14,704 bases of DNA, from assembly GCA_030146605.1 (NCBI GenBank), contig JASLBO010000066.1, forward strand, positions 1 to 14,704, given 5' to 3'. The notes under the pieces are model-generated. The model was not told where the DNA came from, made no database searches, and saw only the letters and a list, made by a program, of their open reading frames with translations. Position 1 is the stretch's first letter. Every line of letters starts with the position of its first letter. The stretch is from Sphingomonas sp. (GTDB taxonomy: Bacteria > Pseudomonadota > Alphaproteobacteria > Sphingomonadales > Sphingomonadaceae). Made by a program: the position numbers and the translations under genes. Positions 8,020-13,369 of this stretch are shown here, in pieces.

Positions 8020-9431
8020 AGCTGGGTGCGCTGACCGGCGGCGATGAGAGCGCCGCGATTACGGGCTTCGCGATCGACCACCGGAAGGTAGCCCCGGGAA
8101 CGGTGTTCGGCGCCTTCGAAGGCGCGCGGGTCAATGGCGAGGATTTCATCCCGGCGGCGGTGAAGGCAGGCGCGATCGCGATCGTGGCCCGGCCGGGTGC
8201 CGTGATCGAGGGCGCGGTGCACATCGCCGACGTCAATCCGCGCGAACGCTTTGCCCGGCTGGCGGCGACGTTCTTCGCGCCGTTTCCGGAGACTGCCGTC
8301 GCCGTGACGGGGACCAACGGCAAGACGTCCACCGTGGAAATGACGCGCCAATTGTGGCGCATGGCGGGGCATCACGCGGCGTCGATCGGGACGCTGGGCG
8401 TCACGACATCCGACGACACGGTCTCGACCGGGCTGACCACTCCCGACGTCGTGACGTTCCTGGCGAATGTCGCCGGGTTGGCGCGCGAGGGCGTGACGCA
8501 TGTCGCGTTCGAGGCCTCCTCGCACGGGCTTTCCCAATACCGGACCGAGGGGCTGCCAGTGCGGGCGGCGGCGTTCACCAATCTCAGCCGCGACCATCTC
8601 GATTATCATGGCGACATGGCAGCGTATTTTTGCGCCAAGCTCCGGCTGTTCGCGGATGTGCTCGATCTGGACGGGACGGCGGTGGTCTGGGCGGATGACC
8701 CGCACAGCCCGCGGGTCGAGGAACTTGCCCGGATGCGGGGCAACAAGCTGATCACGGTGGGTGAGCATGGCGAAACGCTCAAGCTGGTCGGGCGGGATCC
8801 GACCCTGCTGGGGCAGGGGCTGACGATCGAGGCCGGCGGCAATACGCATAAGGTGATGTTGCCGCTGATCGGCGCCTATCAGGCCGCGAACGCACTGACC
8901 GCGGCGGGGCTGGTGATCGCGACTGGCGGCGATGTCGCCGCGACGCTCGCCAATCTCGCACGGCTCCAGCCGGTGCGCGGGCGGATCGAACGTGCGGTGA
9001 TCACGCGCAGCGGTGCGCCGGTCTATGTCGATTATGCGCATACCCCCGACGCGCTGGATGCGGCGATCGCGGCGTTGAAGCCGCATACCAGCGGACGGCT
9101 GATCCTCGTGTTCGGCGCGGGCGGGGACCGCGATACCGGCAAGCGCGAGCCGATGGGGCAGGCGGCGGTGGCCGGTGCCGATGTGGTGATCGTCACCGAC
9201 GACAATCCGCGGAACGAAGATCCGGCGGCGATCCGCGCCGAAGTGCTCAAGGGTGCGCCCGGTGCGACCGAGATCGGCGGGCGGCGCGAGGCGATCGCCG
9301 CGGCGATCGGAATGGCCGAATCGGAGGATATCGTGCTGATCGCAGGCAAGGGCCACGAACAGGGGCAGATCGTCGGCGATCTCGTGCTGCCGTTCGACGA
9401 TGTGAGCGTTGCCCGGGAATGCGCCGCGTGA
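8016..9431 (+). CDS. murE: UDP-MurNAc-L-Ala-D-Glu:meso-diaminopimelate ligase MurE
   Basis: A 471-residue cytoplasmic Mur ligase adding the third stem-peptide residue. The ATP P-loop GTNGKTST is at 99-106 (Lys103). The central domain has TTPD, EASSHGL and NLSRDHLDYHGD, followed by the Ala-Lys of FCAKLRLF, which corresponds to the carbamylated lysine. The C-terminal specificity motif D396-N-P-R399 indicates meso-diaminopimelate rather than lysine as substrate. KGHEQGQ lies near the end. The GTG start overlaps the ftsI stop by 4 nt. The C-terminus looks complete; it is followed, unusually for this operon, by a 127-nt gap filled by a palindromic repeat. Confidence 0.95.
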   Translation: MKLGALTGGDESAAITGFAIDHRKVAPGTVFGAFEGARVNGEDFIPAAVKAGAIAIVARPGAVIEGAVHIADVNPRERFARLAATFFAPFPETAVAVTGTNGKTSTVEMTRQLWRMAGHHAASIGTLGVTTSDDTVSTGLTTPDVVTFLANVAGLAREGVTHVAFEASSHGLSQYRTEGLPVRAAAFTNLSRDHLDYHGDMAAYFCAKLRLFADVLDLDGTAVVWADDPHSPRVEELARMRGNKLITVGEHGETLKLVGRDPTLLGQGLTIEAGGNTHKVMLPLIGAYQAANALTAAGLVIATGGDVAATLANLARLQPVRGRIERAVITRSGAPVYVDYAHTPDALDAAIAALKPHTSGRLILVFGAGGDRDTGKREPMGQAAVAGADVVIVTDDNPRNEDPAAIRAEVLKGAPGATEIGGRREAIAAAIGMAESEDIVLIAGKGHEQGQIVGDLVLPFDDVSVARECAA

Positions 9432-9449
9432 GGGCACTTCTTCTTCTGA

Positions 9450-9557
9450 AGCCCCTCCCCTTCACGGGAGGGGTTGGGGGTGGGGCCTGTCCGTCTTACC
9501 GAGTCCATCGCCTGCGGACAGGCCCCACCCCTACCCCTCCCCTGAAGGGGAGGGGCT
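9450..9557. repeat. Large GC-rich palindromic element between murE and murF
   Basis: Left arm 9450-9493 (44 nt) and right arm 9515-9557 (43 nt) are reverse complements except for two substitutions and one single-base gap; the loop is 9494-9514. Each arm can also fold on itself (CCCCTCCCC, short loop, GGGGAGGGG-like), followed by a TTGGGGGTGGGGCC-like tail. The element fills almost the whole murE-murF gap and stops 1 nt before the murF GTG. It resembles REP/BIME-type dispersed repeats and shares its plan with the element in murD. Confidence 0.85.
9545..9555 (+). promoter_or_regulatory. murF ribosome binding site provided by the repeat
   Basis: AAGGGGAGGGG lies in the last part of the palindrome's right arm, with the GGAG core (9549-9552) 6 nt before the GTG at 9559. 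In the full palindrome this site is paired, so folding could hide it. Confidence 0.6.
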
Positions 9558-9558
9558 T

Positions 9559-10935
9559 GTGAAATCGCTTTGGACCTCCGACGAGATCGCTGCCGCTACG
9601 GCGGGCACCGCCTCGGCCAACTTCGACGTCACCGGCGTAACCTTCGACTCCCGTGAAGTCGGCTCCGGCGACCTGTTCCTGGCCCTGAACGGCGAGACCA
9701 CCGACGGGCATCGCTTCCTCGATCAGGCATTCGCGCAGGGTGCGGCGGGTGCCGTGGTGTCGGAGCAGGCCGCACACCCCAATGTGCTGGTGGACGACAC
9801 TACCGCCGCGCTCGATGCGCTGGGCATGGCCGCACGCGCTCGCATGCACGGCAAGGTGATCGGCGTCACCGGATCGGTCGGCAAGACCGGCACGAAGGAA
9901 GCGCTGTTCGCGGCGCTGGACCGCACGGATCCCGGCTGCGCGCATCGTTCGGTGAAGAGCTACAACAACCATACCGGCGTGCCGCTCAGCCTCGCGCGGA
10001 TGCCGGCGAGCACGCGTTTCGGGGTGTTCGAGATGGGGATGAACCATTCCGGCGAACTGGCGCAGCTGACCCGGCTGGTGCGCCCGCATGTCGCGATGGT
10101 GACGACGATCGCGCCGGCGCATATGGGGTTCTTCGCCAGCGAGGCGGCGATCGCCGACGCCAAAAGCGAGATCTTTCAGGGTCTCGAGCCCGGCGGTACC
10201 GCGATCGTGCCGTTCGACAGCCCGCATCGCGACCGGCTGATCGCCGCCGCCACGCCGCATGCGGCCAAGGTGGTGACCTTCGGCATGCATGACGGCGCCG
10301 ATTACCGCGCAGTCGAGATGATGCGGGTCCGCACCGGCGGGACCTTCGTCACCGCGCGGTTCGGGCAACGCGAATTGAGCTTCACGATCGCCCAGCCGGG
10401 TGCGCATTGGGTCTCGAACGCGATGGGGATCCTCGCGGCCGTCGATGCGGCGGGCGGCGACATGGAAATGGCGGGGCTGGCGCTGGCCGAGATGGGCGGG
10501 CTCGCGGGTCGTGGTGCGCGGTTCATGGCGCAGGTACCGGGCGGCGAGGCGCTGGTGATCGACGAGAGCTACAACGCCAATCCCTCGTCGATGCGCGCGA
10601 CGCTGGCGGTGCTGGCGAACGAGCCGGGGCGCAAGCTTGCGGTGCTGGGCGAGATGCGCGAGCTGGGCGAGCATTCCGACGCGTTCCATGCAGCGCTCGC
10701 CGAGCCGATCGTGGCTTCGGGTGTGAGCTATGCGATCCTTGTCGGCGAGGCGATGGCCGCGCTGGCGAATGCGCTTGAGGGTAAAGTGGAATTCGTCCAT
10801 GTGCCCGACGCCGCAACCGCGCGCGAACGGCTATTTGCCGTGCTGGCGCCGGGCGATGCGGTGCTCGTGAAAGGCTCTAACGGCGTGCGTCTCTCAGGCG
10901 TCGTGGCGGCATTGGCGGAAAGGGCGAAGGCCTGA
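9559..10935 (+). CDS. murF: UDP-MurNAc-tripeptide:D-alanyl-D-alanine ligase MurF
   Basis: A 458-residue cytoplasmic Mur ligase that adds D-Ala-D-Ala to complete the pentapeptide. The N-terminal domain begins [14 protein letters not shown] and contains [15 protein letters not shown]. The P-loop GSVGKTGTK starts at 105 with Lys109. [10 protein letters not shown] starts at 134, [10 protein letters not shown] at 158, and DESYNANP at 335-342, all typical of MurF. The GTG start at 9559 matches homologue N-termini; the open frame runs back to 9409 inside murE, but those extra residues are only translated palindrome. The stop overlaps the mraY ATG by one base. Confidence 0.95.
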
Positions 10936-12005
10936 TGCTCTACTGGATCGCGGAACAGCTGGGCTTCCCGGGCGTCCTCAATCTCATCCGCTATCTCTCG
11001 TTCCGCACCGGCGCGGCGGTCGCCACCGCTTTGCTGCTCGGGCTGATCATCGGACCGAAGTTCATCGGCTGGCTGCGCGTCCGCCAGGGCAAGGGCCAGC
11101 CGATCCGCAGTGATGGCCCGCAGAGCCACCTCGCCAAGCGCGGAACCCCGACGATGGGCGGGCTGATGATCCTGACCAGCCTGATGGTCTCGCTATTGCT
11201 GTGGATGGACCTCGCCAATCCGCTGGTCTGGGCGTGCATGTTCGTGACCTTCGGCTTCGGCGCGATCGGCTTTCTCGACGATTACGACAAGGTGAAGAAG
11301 GCGAGCACCGCGGGCGTATCGGGCCGGGTCCGCCTGCTCGGCGAGTTCGCCATCGCGGGGATCGCCAGCTGGGTGATCATCTCGCAGACCGGAACGGTGC
11401 TCTACGTACCGTTCTTTTCGTGGGTCCACCCCGATCTTGGCTGGTTCTACATCCCCTTCGCCGCGTTCACGATCGTCGCGTTCGGCAACGCAGTGAACCT
11501 CACCGACGGGCTCGACGGGCTTGCGACGATGCCGGTGGTGATCGCCAGCATGGCGTTCATGCTGATCGCCTATGTCGTCGGCAACAAGGTGTTCGCCACC
11601 TATCTCGGTATTCCGTATGTCCACGGTGCGGGCGATCTCGCGATCTTCTGCGGCGCGATGATCGGGGCGGGGCTGGCGTTCCTGTGGTTCAATGCCCCCC
11701 CGGCGGCGGTGTTCATGGGCGATACCGGCAGCCTCGCGCTCGGCGGTGCGCTCGGCGCGATCGCGGTGTCGGCGCAGCACGAGCTGGTGCTCGGGATCAT
11801 CGGCGGGCTGTTCGTCGTCGAGGCGCTCAGCGTGATCATCCAGGTGTTCTTCTTCAAGCGCACCGGCAAGCGCGTCTTCAAGATGGCGCCGATCCACCAT
11901 CATTTCGAACAGCTCGGCTGGTCGGAGCCGACGGTGGTGATCCGCTTCTGGATCATCGCGTTCGTGCTGGCGCTGGCGGGGCTCTCGACGCTGAAGCTCA
12001 GGTGA
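10935..12005 (+). CDS. mraY: Phospho-MurNAc-pentapeptide translocase MraY
   Basis: A 356-residue inner-membrane enzyme that transfers phospho-MurNAc-pentapeptide from UDP to undecaprenyl phosphate, giving lipid I. About ten hydrophobic segments are visible. Active-site signatures are present: the Asp pair D115-D116 in [19 protein letters not shown] with N188 and D191, and the HHH motif at 321-323 in [20 protein letters not shown] and the cytoplasmic PTMGG segment also fit. Length is normal (about 360). The ATG overlaps the murF stop by one base and has GAAGG upstream. The stop overlaps the murD GTG by 4 nt. Confidence 0.96.
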
Positions 12006-13369
12006 TCACGTGTCCCGCCTGGCGCGGCAAACGCTATGCGGTGCTCGGGCTTGCGCGGTCGGGGCTGGCGACGGTGCACGCTTTGCTTGCATCAGGCGCA
12101 AGCGTGGTCGCGTGGGATTCGAACGAGGTAGCGAGAGACGCTCTTTCTCCCTCTCCCCTCCGGGGAGTGGGCCGGGGAGAGGGGCCTATCGATAGCGCTT
12201 CCCACCCGCCCCTCTCCCAACCCTCTCCCCGGAGGGGAGAGGGCTTGACGCTTGCCGATCCCTTAGAAATCAATCTCACCGGTTTCGCCGGGGTCGTGGT
12301 TTCCCCTGGCGTGCCCCTCAACAAACACCCGATCGCTGCGTATGCGGCCTCTTTCGGCGTGCCCGTCATCGGCGACATCGAACTGTTCGCGCAGGCACGC
12401 CCCGAGCTTCCGCCGCACAATGTCGTCGGCATCACCGGGACCAACGGCAAGTCCACCACCACTGCGCTGATCGATCATATCGTCCGTACTGCCGGGCTTC
12501 CGAGCCTCGCCGGCGGCAATATCGGGCTACCGATCCTCGGCCGCGATCCGCTGCCCGCGGGCGGGGTCTATGTGCTCGAATTGTCGAGCTACCAGATCGA
12601 CTTGACCTTCAGCCTCGACTGCGACGTCGCGGTACTGCTCAATATCACCCCCGACCATCTCGATCGCTATGACGGTTTCCAAGCCTATGCCGATTCCAAG
12701 GGGCGGCTGTTGCGGATGCAGTCTGAAGGGCATTCGGCGGTGGTTTCCGCCTGGACCGAGGCGAGCACCGAACAGGCACATGGACTGAATCAGTTCGTAG
12801 CCTCGGTAGCCCCGGGCCATCCGGAGGATCAAAGCCGTTGGCCGGCGCTGCAAGGCCCGCACAATCTCGAAAACGCGCAGATCGCGCGCGTCGCCGCCGA
12901 ACTGCTTGGCATTCCAGGCGAAGCGATCGAGCGCGGCCTCGAAACCTTTCCCGGTCTGCCGCACCGGATGGAGCGGGTCGCCACCAGAAACGGCGTGCTG
13001 TTCGTCAACGACAGCAAGGCGACGAACGCCGATTCCACTACGCCCGCGCTCTCGGCCTATCCGCGCGTCCACTGGATTCTCGGCGGGCGGGCCAAGACGG
13101 ACAGCCTCGAGGCGTGCCGGCCCGGCTTCGGCCATGTCGTGAAAGCCTATACGATCGGCGAGGCGGGTGAATTGTTCGCTAGCCTCCTCGAAGGCGAAAT
13201 GCCGGTAGAGCGTGCGGGAGCGCTCGAAGCCGCCGTGAAAAGCGCTGCGACGAACGCCGCGCCCGGTGAGACGGTGCTGCTTTCGCCGGCCTGCGCCTCG
13301 TTCGACCAGTTCAAGGATTATGAGGCGCGCGGTCAGGCATTCCGCGACGCGGTGAGCGCGCTCGGATGA
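12002..13369 (+). CDS. murD: UDP-MurNAc-L-alanine:D-glutamate ligase MurD, with a repeat-encoded insertion
   Basis: A 455-residue cytoplasmic Mur ligase adding D-glutamate to UDP-MurNAc-L-Ala. [12 protein letters not shown] (10-21) opens the N-terminal UDP-MurNAc-binding domain. The P-loop GTNGKST is at 146-152 with Lys150. ELSSYQID and [11 protein letters not shown] mark the central domain, and [11 protein letters not shown] and GGRAKTD the later part. The GTG start overlaps mraY as GTGA. About residues 48-81 (Pro/Arg/Gly/Ser-rich) are encoded by a palindromic repeat inserted between the second beta strand (SVVAWDS) and [12 protein letters not shown]. The frame stays open and all catalytic motifs are present, so the protein is probably functional with an added surface loop. 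Confidence 0.94.
12149..12243. repeat. GC-rich palindromic element inserted in frame in murD
   Basis: Left arm 12149-12185 and right arm 12208-12243 are reverse complements over about 36 nt; the outer 19 nt match perfectly, with only three substitutions and one gap further in. The loop 12186-12207 begins with the perfect palindrome CTATCGATAG. Each arm again contains its own small CCCCTCC/GGGGAG hairpin. Translated in the murD frame it encodes PSPLRG and [12 protein letters not shown] peptide without a stop. The plan matches the murE-murF element. Confidence 0.88.

Follow-up and report, generated by a model that had tools for sequence, protein, structure and literature searches.

Palindromic elements of several families in one loop of MurD in Sphingomonas, and the association of their arms with DUF559 genes

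The closest described systems are palindromic repeats that lie inside genes. According to PMC3733652, the Rickettsia palindromic elements (RPEs) are palindromes found in frame inside open reading frames that are likely to code for functional proteins. The same paper describes REPs of the GTAG and CGTC classes as paired inverted palindromic units that are dispersed and, in some cases, intragenic. In the sphingomonad relatives E. litoralis and S. alaskensis, intragenic REPs are reported there for tRNA synthetases and TruB, and recB of two Xanthomonas species carries REPs at about the same site (PMC3733652). The main text of that paper does not mention murD. In-frame palindromes in genes, and a recB site shared by two Xanthomonas species, are therefore already on record in that source. 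As far as the literature searched goes, two things are new: families replace one another at the same loops in three enzymes, and the repeats are tied to DUF559. A search of titles and the beginnings of abstracts returned nothing on palindromes in murD or on DUF559 with palindromes.

The locus considered here lies in a window of 14,704 nucleotides from Sphingomonas sp. (contig JASLBO010000066.1), the whole stretch of DNA that was analysed. An earlier note on this DNA had pointed to a near-perfect palindrome inside the essential gene murD and had named the RPEs as its parallel. The parallel is apt, as the murD element works like the RPEs in reading frames. The overall interpretation holds in part; what it missed is that the insert is not unique, that several families occur at the site, and that the elements have a probable partner in DUF559. 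Our preferred reading, to which we assign a probability of about 0.6, regards the murD insert as a gene-less short form of a palindrome-ended mobile element that bears DUF559, with DUF559 moving the short copies.

Two palindromic elements in the window

The features of the window that the argument needs are as follows.

12002-13369, + strand: murD; GTG start overlapping the mraY stop codon; 455 aa; TIGR01087
12149-12243, + strand: family A palindromic element; 95 bp; in frame, MurD residues 50-81
12149-12185, + strand: left arm of the family A element; small palindrome CCCTCTCCCC-TCC-GGGGAGTGGG plus tail
12186-12207, no strand: inter-arm loop of the family A element
12208-12243, + strand: right arm of the family A element, the inverted copy of the left arm
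9444-9563, no strand: family B palindromic element in the murE-murF spacer; arms 85% complementary

The 95-bp palindrome is confirmed at 12149-12243, where the comparison of the DNA with its own reverse complement gives a score of 54 and the best of 500 letter shuffles gives 22. The arm coordinates and the residue range (about 48-81) first proposed are right within a few units. All six of the CCCTCTCCCC-like sites of the window (at most one mismatch; chance expectation 1.6) fall inside the murD element, and the RNA of 12140-12252 folds at -80.4 kcal/mol (z -6.8), with none of 200 shuffles equally low. The host protein is a full-length MurD by both family score (336 bits against TIGR01087, cut-off 212) and fold; an in-frame palindromic repeat does sit in an essential wall enzyme of 455 aa. 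Four of the six frames of the 95 bp are free of stops, the coding frame of residues 50-81 included. No NCBIfam model matches the 39-aa MurD stretch with the insert at E up to 1. In a structure model, which the earlier note had suggested as a check for an exposed loop, the insert is a low-confidence loop outside the well-modelled core.

The database version of this MurD (P0001, 374 aa) seemingly begins at a TTG at 12245, directly after the insert, and the gene caller was therefore probably misled by the insert. A search of 9350-12400 against Rfam gives 39 matches, every one below the gathering score of its family; nearly all are microRNA models placed on the two hairpins, and we take them as chance. 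As for the second element, murF probably starts at the GTG at 9559-9561, and the right end of the family B element runs into this start. A long murF reading frame from 9409 passes through the element.

Occupants of the loops in MurD, MetH and IleRS

Does the insert belong to this one MurD? When 119 MurD homologues are aligned, segments of very different make-up stand at one place and are absent in others. In the genus, 197 of 201 genomes match, and 110 of these were fetched (the best 30 and 80 from further down the list); as the survey drew on higher-scoring genomes, the sample leans to relatives of the query. A recognisable element, of four families, is found in 71 of the 108 assessable sites, the full division being A (the family of the window) 30, C 28, B 12, D 1, other segments 22 and none 15. 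The labels A to D rest on peptide patterns written for this analysis and are supported by the folding energies, the fold z lying below -3 for 28 of the 32 A rows, for all 12 B, all 31 C and both D rows, and for none of the 39 rows without insert or the 24 of the other kind. The four weakly folding family A rows look like remnants. The 22 other segments may be decayed elements, an idea to which folding lends no support. Among 17 loci with other sphingomonad titles (a count that excludes L033), 16 are without insert and one (L023) has a few extra residues; L033, titled Rhizorhabdus, has a family C insert. The expectation that related MurD proteins lack the insert is thus right for some and wrong for many close relatives, which carry palindromic inserts there; nor do all relatives carry a non-palindromic segment of similar length, as alignment, genus survey and folding agree.

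The reading through the murD site is in frame and stop-free in 145 of 149 loci although the insert varies in length, a count that is favoured by our reading upstream from the conserved domain for as long as the frame stays open. A recognised family is present in 80 of the 145 (77 without duplicates). The four remaining loci comprise two that start at a contig end, one with assembly noise and one (L193) in which the frame changes, through a real shift or a sequencing error, after a non-palindromic variable segment and ahead of the conserved PGVPLN motif. In practice the inserts seem to lead gene callers astray and to break assemblies: contigs L016 and L125 are broken inside the murD insert, and at L021 5090-5420 (Sphingomonas vulcanisoli) the murD hairpin is filled with apparent assembly noise, runs of C and G. 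The insert of L179 begins and ends like family C, but the sequence of its arms is different and forms a long, nearly perfect inverted repeat, as though one arm had served as template for the other.

The occupant of the site changes often. On a MurD tree built with the insert excluded (137 rows, eight of 145 having been dropped as five same-genome duplicates and three distant outgroups), at least 54 state changes are needed, against a shuffled mean of 81; the tree is a quick build with many weak forks, and if only its well-supported branches are counted, the changes forced are 9 for A, 5 for B, 10 for C and 8 for the state without insert. The closest pair with unlike families, L137 (A) and L159 (C), is 96.1% identical outside the insert.

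The elements are not confined to murD. The family A arm palindrome is dispersed in the genomes of relatives (present in 9 of 12, with 0 to 80 exact copies per genome), which, as far as the relatives go, speaks against the possibility, raised in the earlier note, that the element occurs nowhere else in the genome; the family B palindrome is present in 9 of 16 genomes with up to 79 copies per genome, and that of family C in 13 of 16. In genome G009 we read 28 further family A elements. Two are in frame and either interrupt a Pfam domain or separate its two halves (MetH, IleRS), two are near one end of an ORF with a Pfam domain (thioesterase-like; RbfA), and the remaining 24 have no Pfam match in the spanning ORFs scanned, namely 25 of the 27 of at least 200 aa and one of the shorter ones. 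In paired copies the spacing of the units is 77 bp in 9 of 15 pairs, and the stop-free frames number four of six in 12 of 15 and three to five in the rest. The loops of different families look alike, and we considered that the inter-arm spacer might be native murD sequence; this idea is dropped because the dispersed copies carry the same kind of loop as those at murD.

The loop in MetH behaves as that in MurD does. Of 50 MetH loci (the 30 best and 20 chosen from the remainder), 15 hold an element, with six families represented (A 6, F 2, B 2, C 2, G 1, D 1) besides one mixture, and 35 hold none. Among MetH relatives of 94-98% identity the loop is A, F, G, C or empty, and one empty loop belongs to a MetH that is 98% and 94% identical on the two sides of the loop. 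The length difference between occupied and empty loops is 81 nt (counted by hand), short of the 100 bp of the element, and in a comparison by eye no clean insertion into metH with target duplication was seen. In IleRS, half of the eight closest of 30 loci (88-100% identity) carry A, three carry G and one carries F, with the peptides read by eye. At a second variable site of IleRS (about residues 310-345, L279-L308) several loci have another repeat, with RHPGESRDPL and GPGLRRGDG-like motifs.

Need the elements be mobile now? According to the main rival explanation they need not: the arrival of each family in murD would be ancient and would have happened only once or a few times, and the alleles would afterwards have been carried from species to species by homologous recombination in the flanks. 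Several observations agree with it. Family C starts 32 nt after the W codon in all 30 inserts measured (that of L179 is not measurable), family A starts at one place in 21 of 32, and the C inserts of one clade share a loop; the common C start, however, fits common descent with allele exchange as well as it fits renewed insertion. Common descent is also suggested by MurD pairs more than 90% identical, whose same-family inserts are alike as well (0.91 for A, 0.93 for C). Moreover, the flanks of A and C alleles are mixed. In a clade of nine A and six C genomes they are not sorted by insert, and the divergence between A and C is about that within A and within C; it is slightly raised only in the last 30 bp of the left flank (0.203 against 0.174 and 0.156) and in the first 50 bp of the right flank (0.186 against 0.150 and 0.177).

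Other observations are harder to reconcile with exchange. Complete association of a base with the insert reaches only to about 12 nt from the murD element, with partial association (0.6-0.9) at single bases within about 75 nt, and exchange would need recombination tracts that end within tens of bases. Over all murD loci the correlation of insert with backbone identity is weak (Spearman 0.38 for A, 0.18 for B and 0.18 for C). Within the clade, the three genes murD, metH and ileS are not matched in family: for example, they carry C, A and A in G046, A, F and F in G030, and A, C and A in G080. Finally, the murD A copies of the clade have a mean identity of 0.90 to its metH A and 0.895 to its ileS A copies and of 0.787 to the murD A of other clades; the best match is the clade's own metH or ileS copy in nine of nine cases, in one by 0.001 only. 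We hold exchange of old alleles to be a rather unlikely explanation, and it and renewed insertion may both act.

It is also conceivable that the host keeps the hairpin or the Pro/Arg/Gly loop for a use such as translation slowing or partner binding, with any family serving. That 71 of 108 sites hold an element, and that elements of several families are replaced rather than only lost, would suit such a selected loop. The peptide sequence, the length and the reading phase of the arms (two phases for the family B arms in murD) all vary, however, and no insert is present in 15 of the 108 genus sites and in 16 of the 17 loci with other sphingomonad titles. We consider selection for the loop improbable, and the loop coded within murD is probably close to neutral.

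DUF559 genes between matching arms

We turn to what could move the elements. Four arm pairs about 400 bp apart enclose a DUF559 gene; the copy in L312 is broken in frame, Pfam confirms three of the four, and no tRNA, tmRNA or Rfam RNA is found in these four loci. The domain (PF04480) is present in 23 of 23 genomes with 113 matches, fragments included, of which 70 loci were fetched (the 30 best and the 40 next listed) and 69 could be tested. Matching inverted arms stand within 190 bp on both sides of DUF559 in 56 of the 69, against 0 of 1000 for a control made of random segments rather than of other small orphan genes; 13 of 69 have no matching arms at the threshold. Some loci are shared by related genomes (L314/L318, L320/L337, L339/L342, L369/L377, L374/L382), so the 69 are not independent cases, and these near-copies also help the clustering of arm families on the DUF559 tree.

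Gene and arms are inherited together. On the DUF559 tree (53 rows, three of the 56 having been dropped for an arm fitting no family) the arm family changes 12 times, where shuffling gives a mean of 34.5 and none of 200 shuffles is as low, and the C arms form one supported clade, as do the A2 arms. DUF559-bearing copies have arms of families A, B, C or F/G or of one of three variants, and none with family D arms was seen among the tested loci. The exact palindrome patterns used for the genome counts also flank DUF559 genes. In G162 the copies L344 and L355 are 73% alike, and their similarity ends at the outer ends of the arms, where the flanks differ. Three DUF559 elements of one genome (L338, L344, L347) lie within a larger unit, about 730 bp long, that is itself repeated. 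In G003, G010 and G012, DUF559 is present and the family A palindrome is absent.

The link between DUF559 and arms probably extends beyond the genus. In a phylum-wide sample the domain is present in 25 of 80 genomes, and arms are found at 12 of 22 tested loci, or at 10 of 20 without G022, a genome of the Sphingomonas group; seven weak matches (L400-L406) and L328, seen before, were left out of 30 loci, and the controls partly overlap elements (21 of 1000 at the threshold), which makes this control weaker than the random-segment one above. In addition, among 120 listed homologues of DUF559, 64 have C-terminal residues of the arm-coded type, by patterns written for this analysis. As to the nature of the domain, its profile matches the endonuclease-like 3hrl (E 2.3e-32) and the mobile intron protein 3r3p (E 4.5e-6), with weak matches to PvuRts1I (0.005) and Vsr (1cw0, 0.017).

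Could the elements instead be REPINs, in which an IS200-like Y1 transposase (RAYT) moves pairs of inverted REP units? Two inverted palindromic units at a fixed spacing, dispersed and in some genomes present in dozens of copies, would agree with this. Yet neither GTAG nor CGTC occurs on either strand of the 95-bp murD element, and the RAYT-type domain (Y1_Tnp, PF01797) is found in none of 17 genomes of relatives, one of which has 80 palindromes; among 14 control genomes the search is positive in 5, which include E. coli and Caulobacter. We give this explanation very little credence.

A proposed mechanism and known systems

Our preferred reading, movement by DUF559, can be put as a mechanism. 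The sphingomonads would hold a superfamily of palindrome-ended mobile elements whose short form is arm, loop and inverted arm; longer copies, whose arms belong to the same families, have a single gene between them, DUF559, related to Vsr and to a mobile-intron nuclease. The short copies lie scattered in the genome, most of them away from conserved genes, and would probably be moved in trans: DUF559 would cut target or arm DNA, and repair would then copy the element in. Copies landing in frame in a tolerant surface loop would survive and be translated, and the occupant of the loop would be replaced over time. Since only in-frame landings in tolerant loops would survive, the loops in the N-terminal domain of MurD, in MetH and in IleRS would be occupied repeatedly, and homing-like cutting followed by repair would explain the renewed use of the same sites. 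The insert in murD would be tolerated because the elements are stop-free in most frames and the MurD loop bears foreign residues, and elements could replace one another because element and loop both stay open in frame.

MurD is thus predicted to be made with the loop translated. Ribosome hopping has been reported for byp elements, and a hairpin that the ribosome hops over, or that is processed out of the RNA to leave MurD without the insert, would suit the very stable fold and the position outside the well-modelled core, but this is very improbable given the stop-free frame kept in 145 of 149 loci of variable insert length, since DNA that is skipped has no need of an open frame. On the same ground we reject an intein or bypass element.

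Whether these are a new class of bacterial mobile element, in which DUF559 homing-like nucleases in cognate palindromic arms go with swarms of gene-less hairpins that recolonise the loops of core enzymes, seems to us an even call. DUF559 would then have the part for these repeats that RAYT has for REPINs. Many orphan palindromic repeats of Proteobacteria, a large group, would thereby gain a candidate enzyme, and a domain of unknown function a role. The loops of MurD, MetH and IleRS are also natural replicates: in enzymes that are nearly identical they have been filled, emptied and filled again by different hairpins, so that what a strong hairpin or a foreign loop costs a core protein is directly measurable.

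How does the system compare with those already described? Like the RPEs, the murD element is a palindrome in the open frame of a functional gene; it differs in its host, in that close relatives have different families at a single site, and in that nuclease-bearing long forms exist. From REPs it differs in having no GTAG or CGTC tag, in the result of the Y1 transposase search in the 17 relatives, and in arms that are tied to DUF559. As with MITEs, short gene-less copies share inverted ends with a longer, gene-bearing element; here, however, the partner is a Vsr-like nuclease and not a transposase of the usual type. In the occupied and empty MetH loops, compared by eye, no clean target-site duplication was seen. 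The likeness to Vsr (1cw0) and to EDxHD homing endonucleases, of which we take 3r3p to be one, lies in the matches of the DUF559 profile; in contrast to these, DUF559 here stands without an intron, between palindromic arms.
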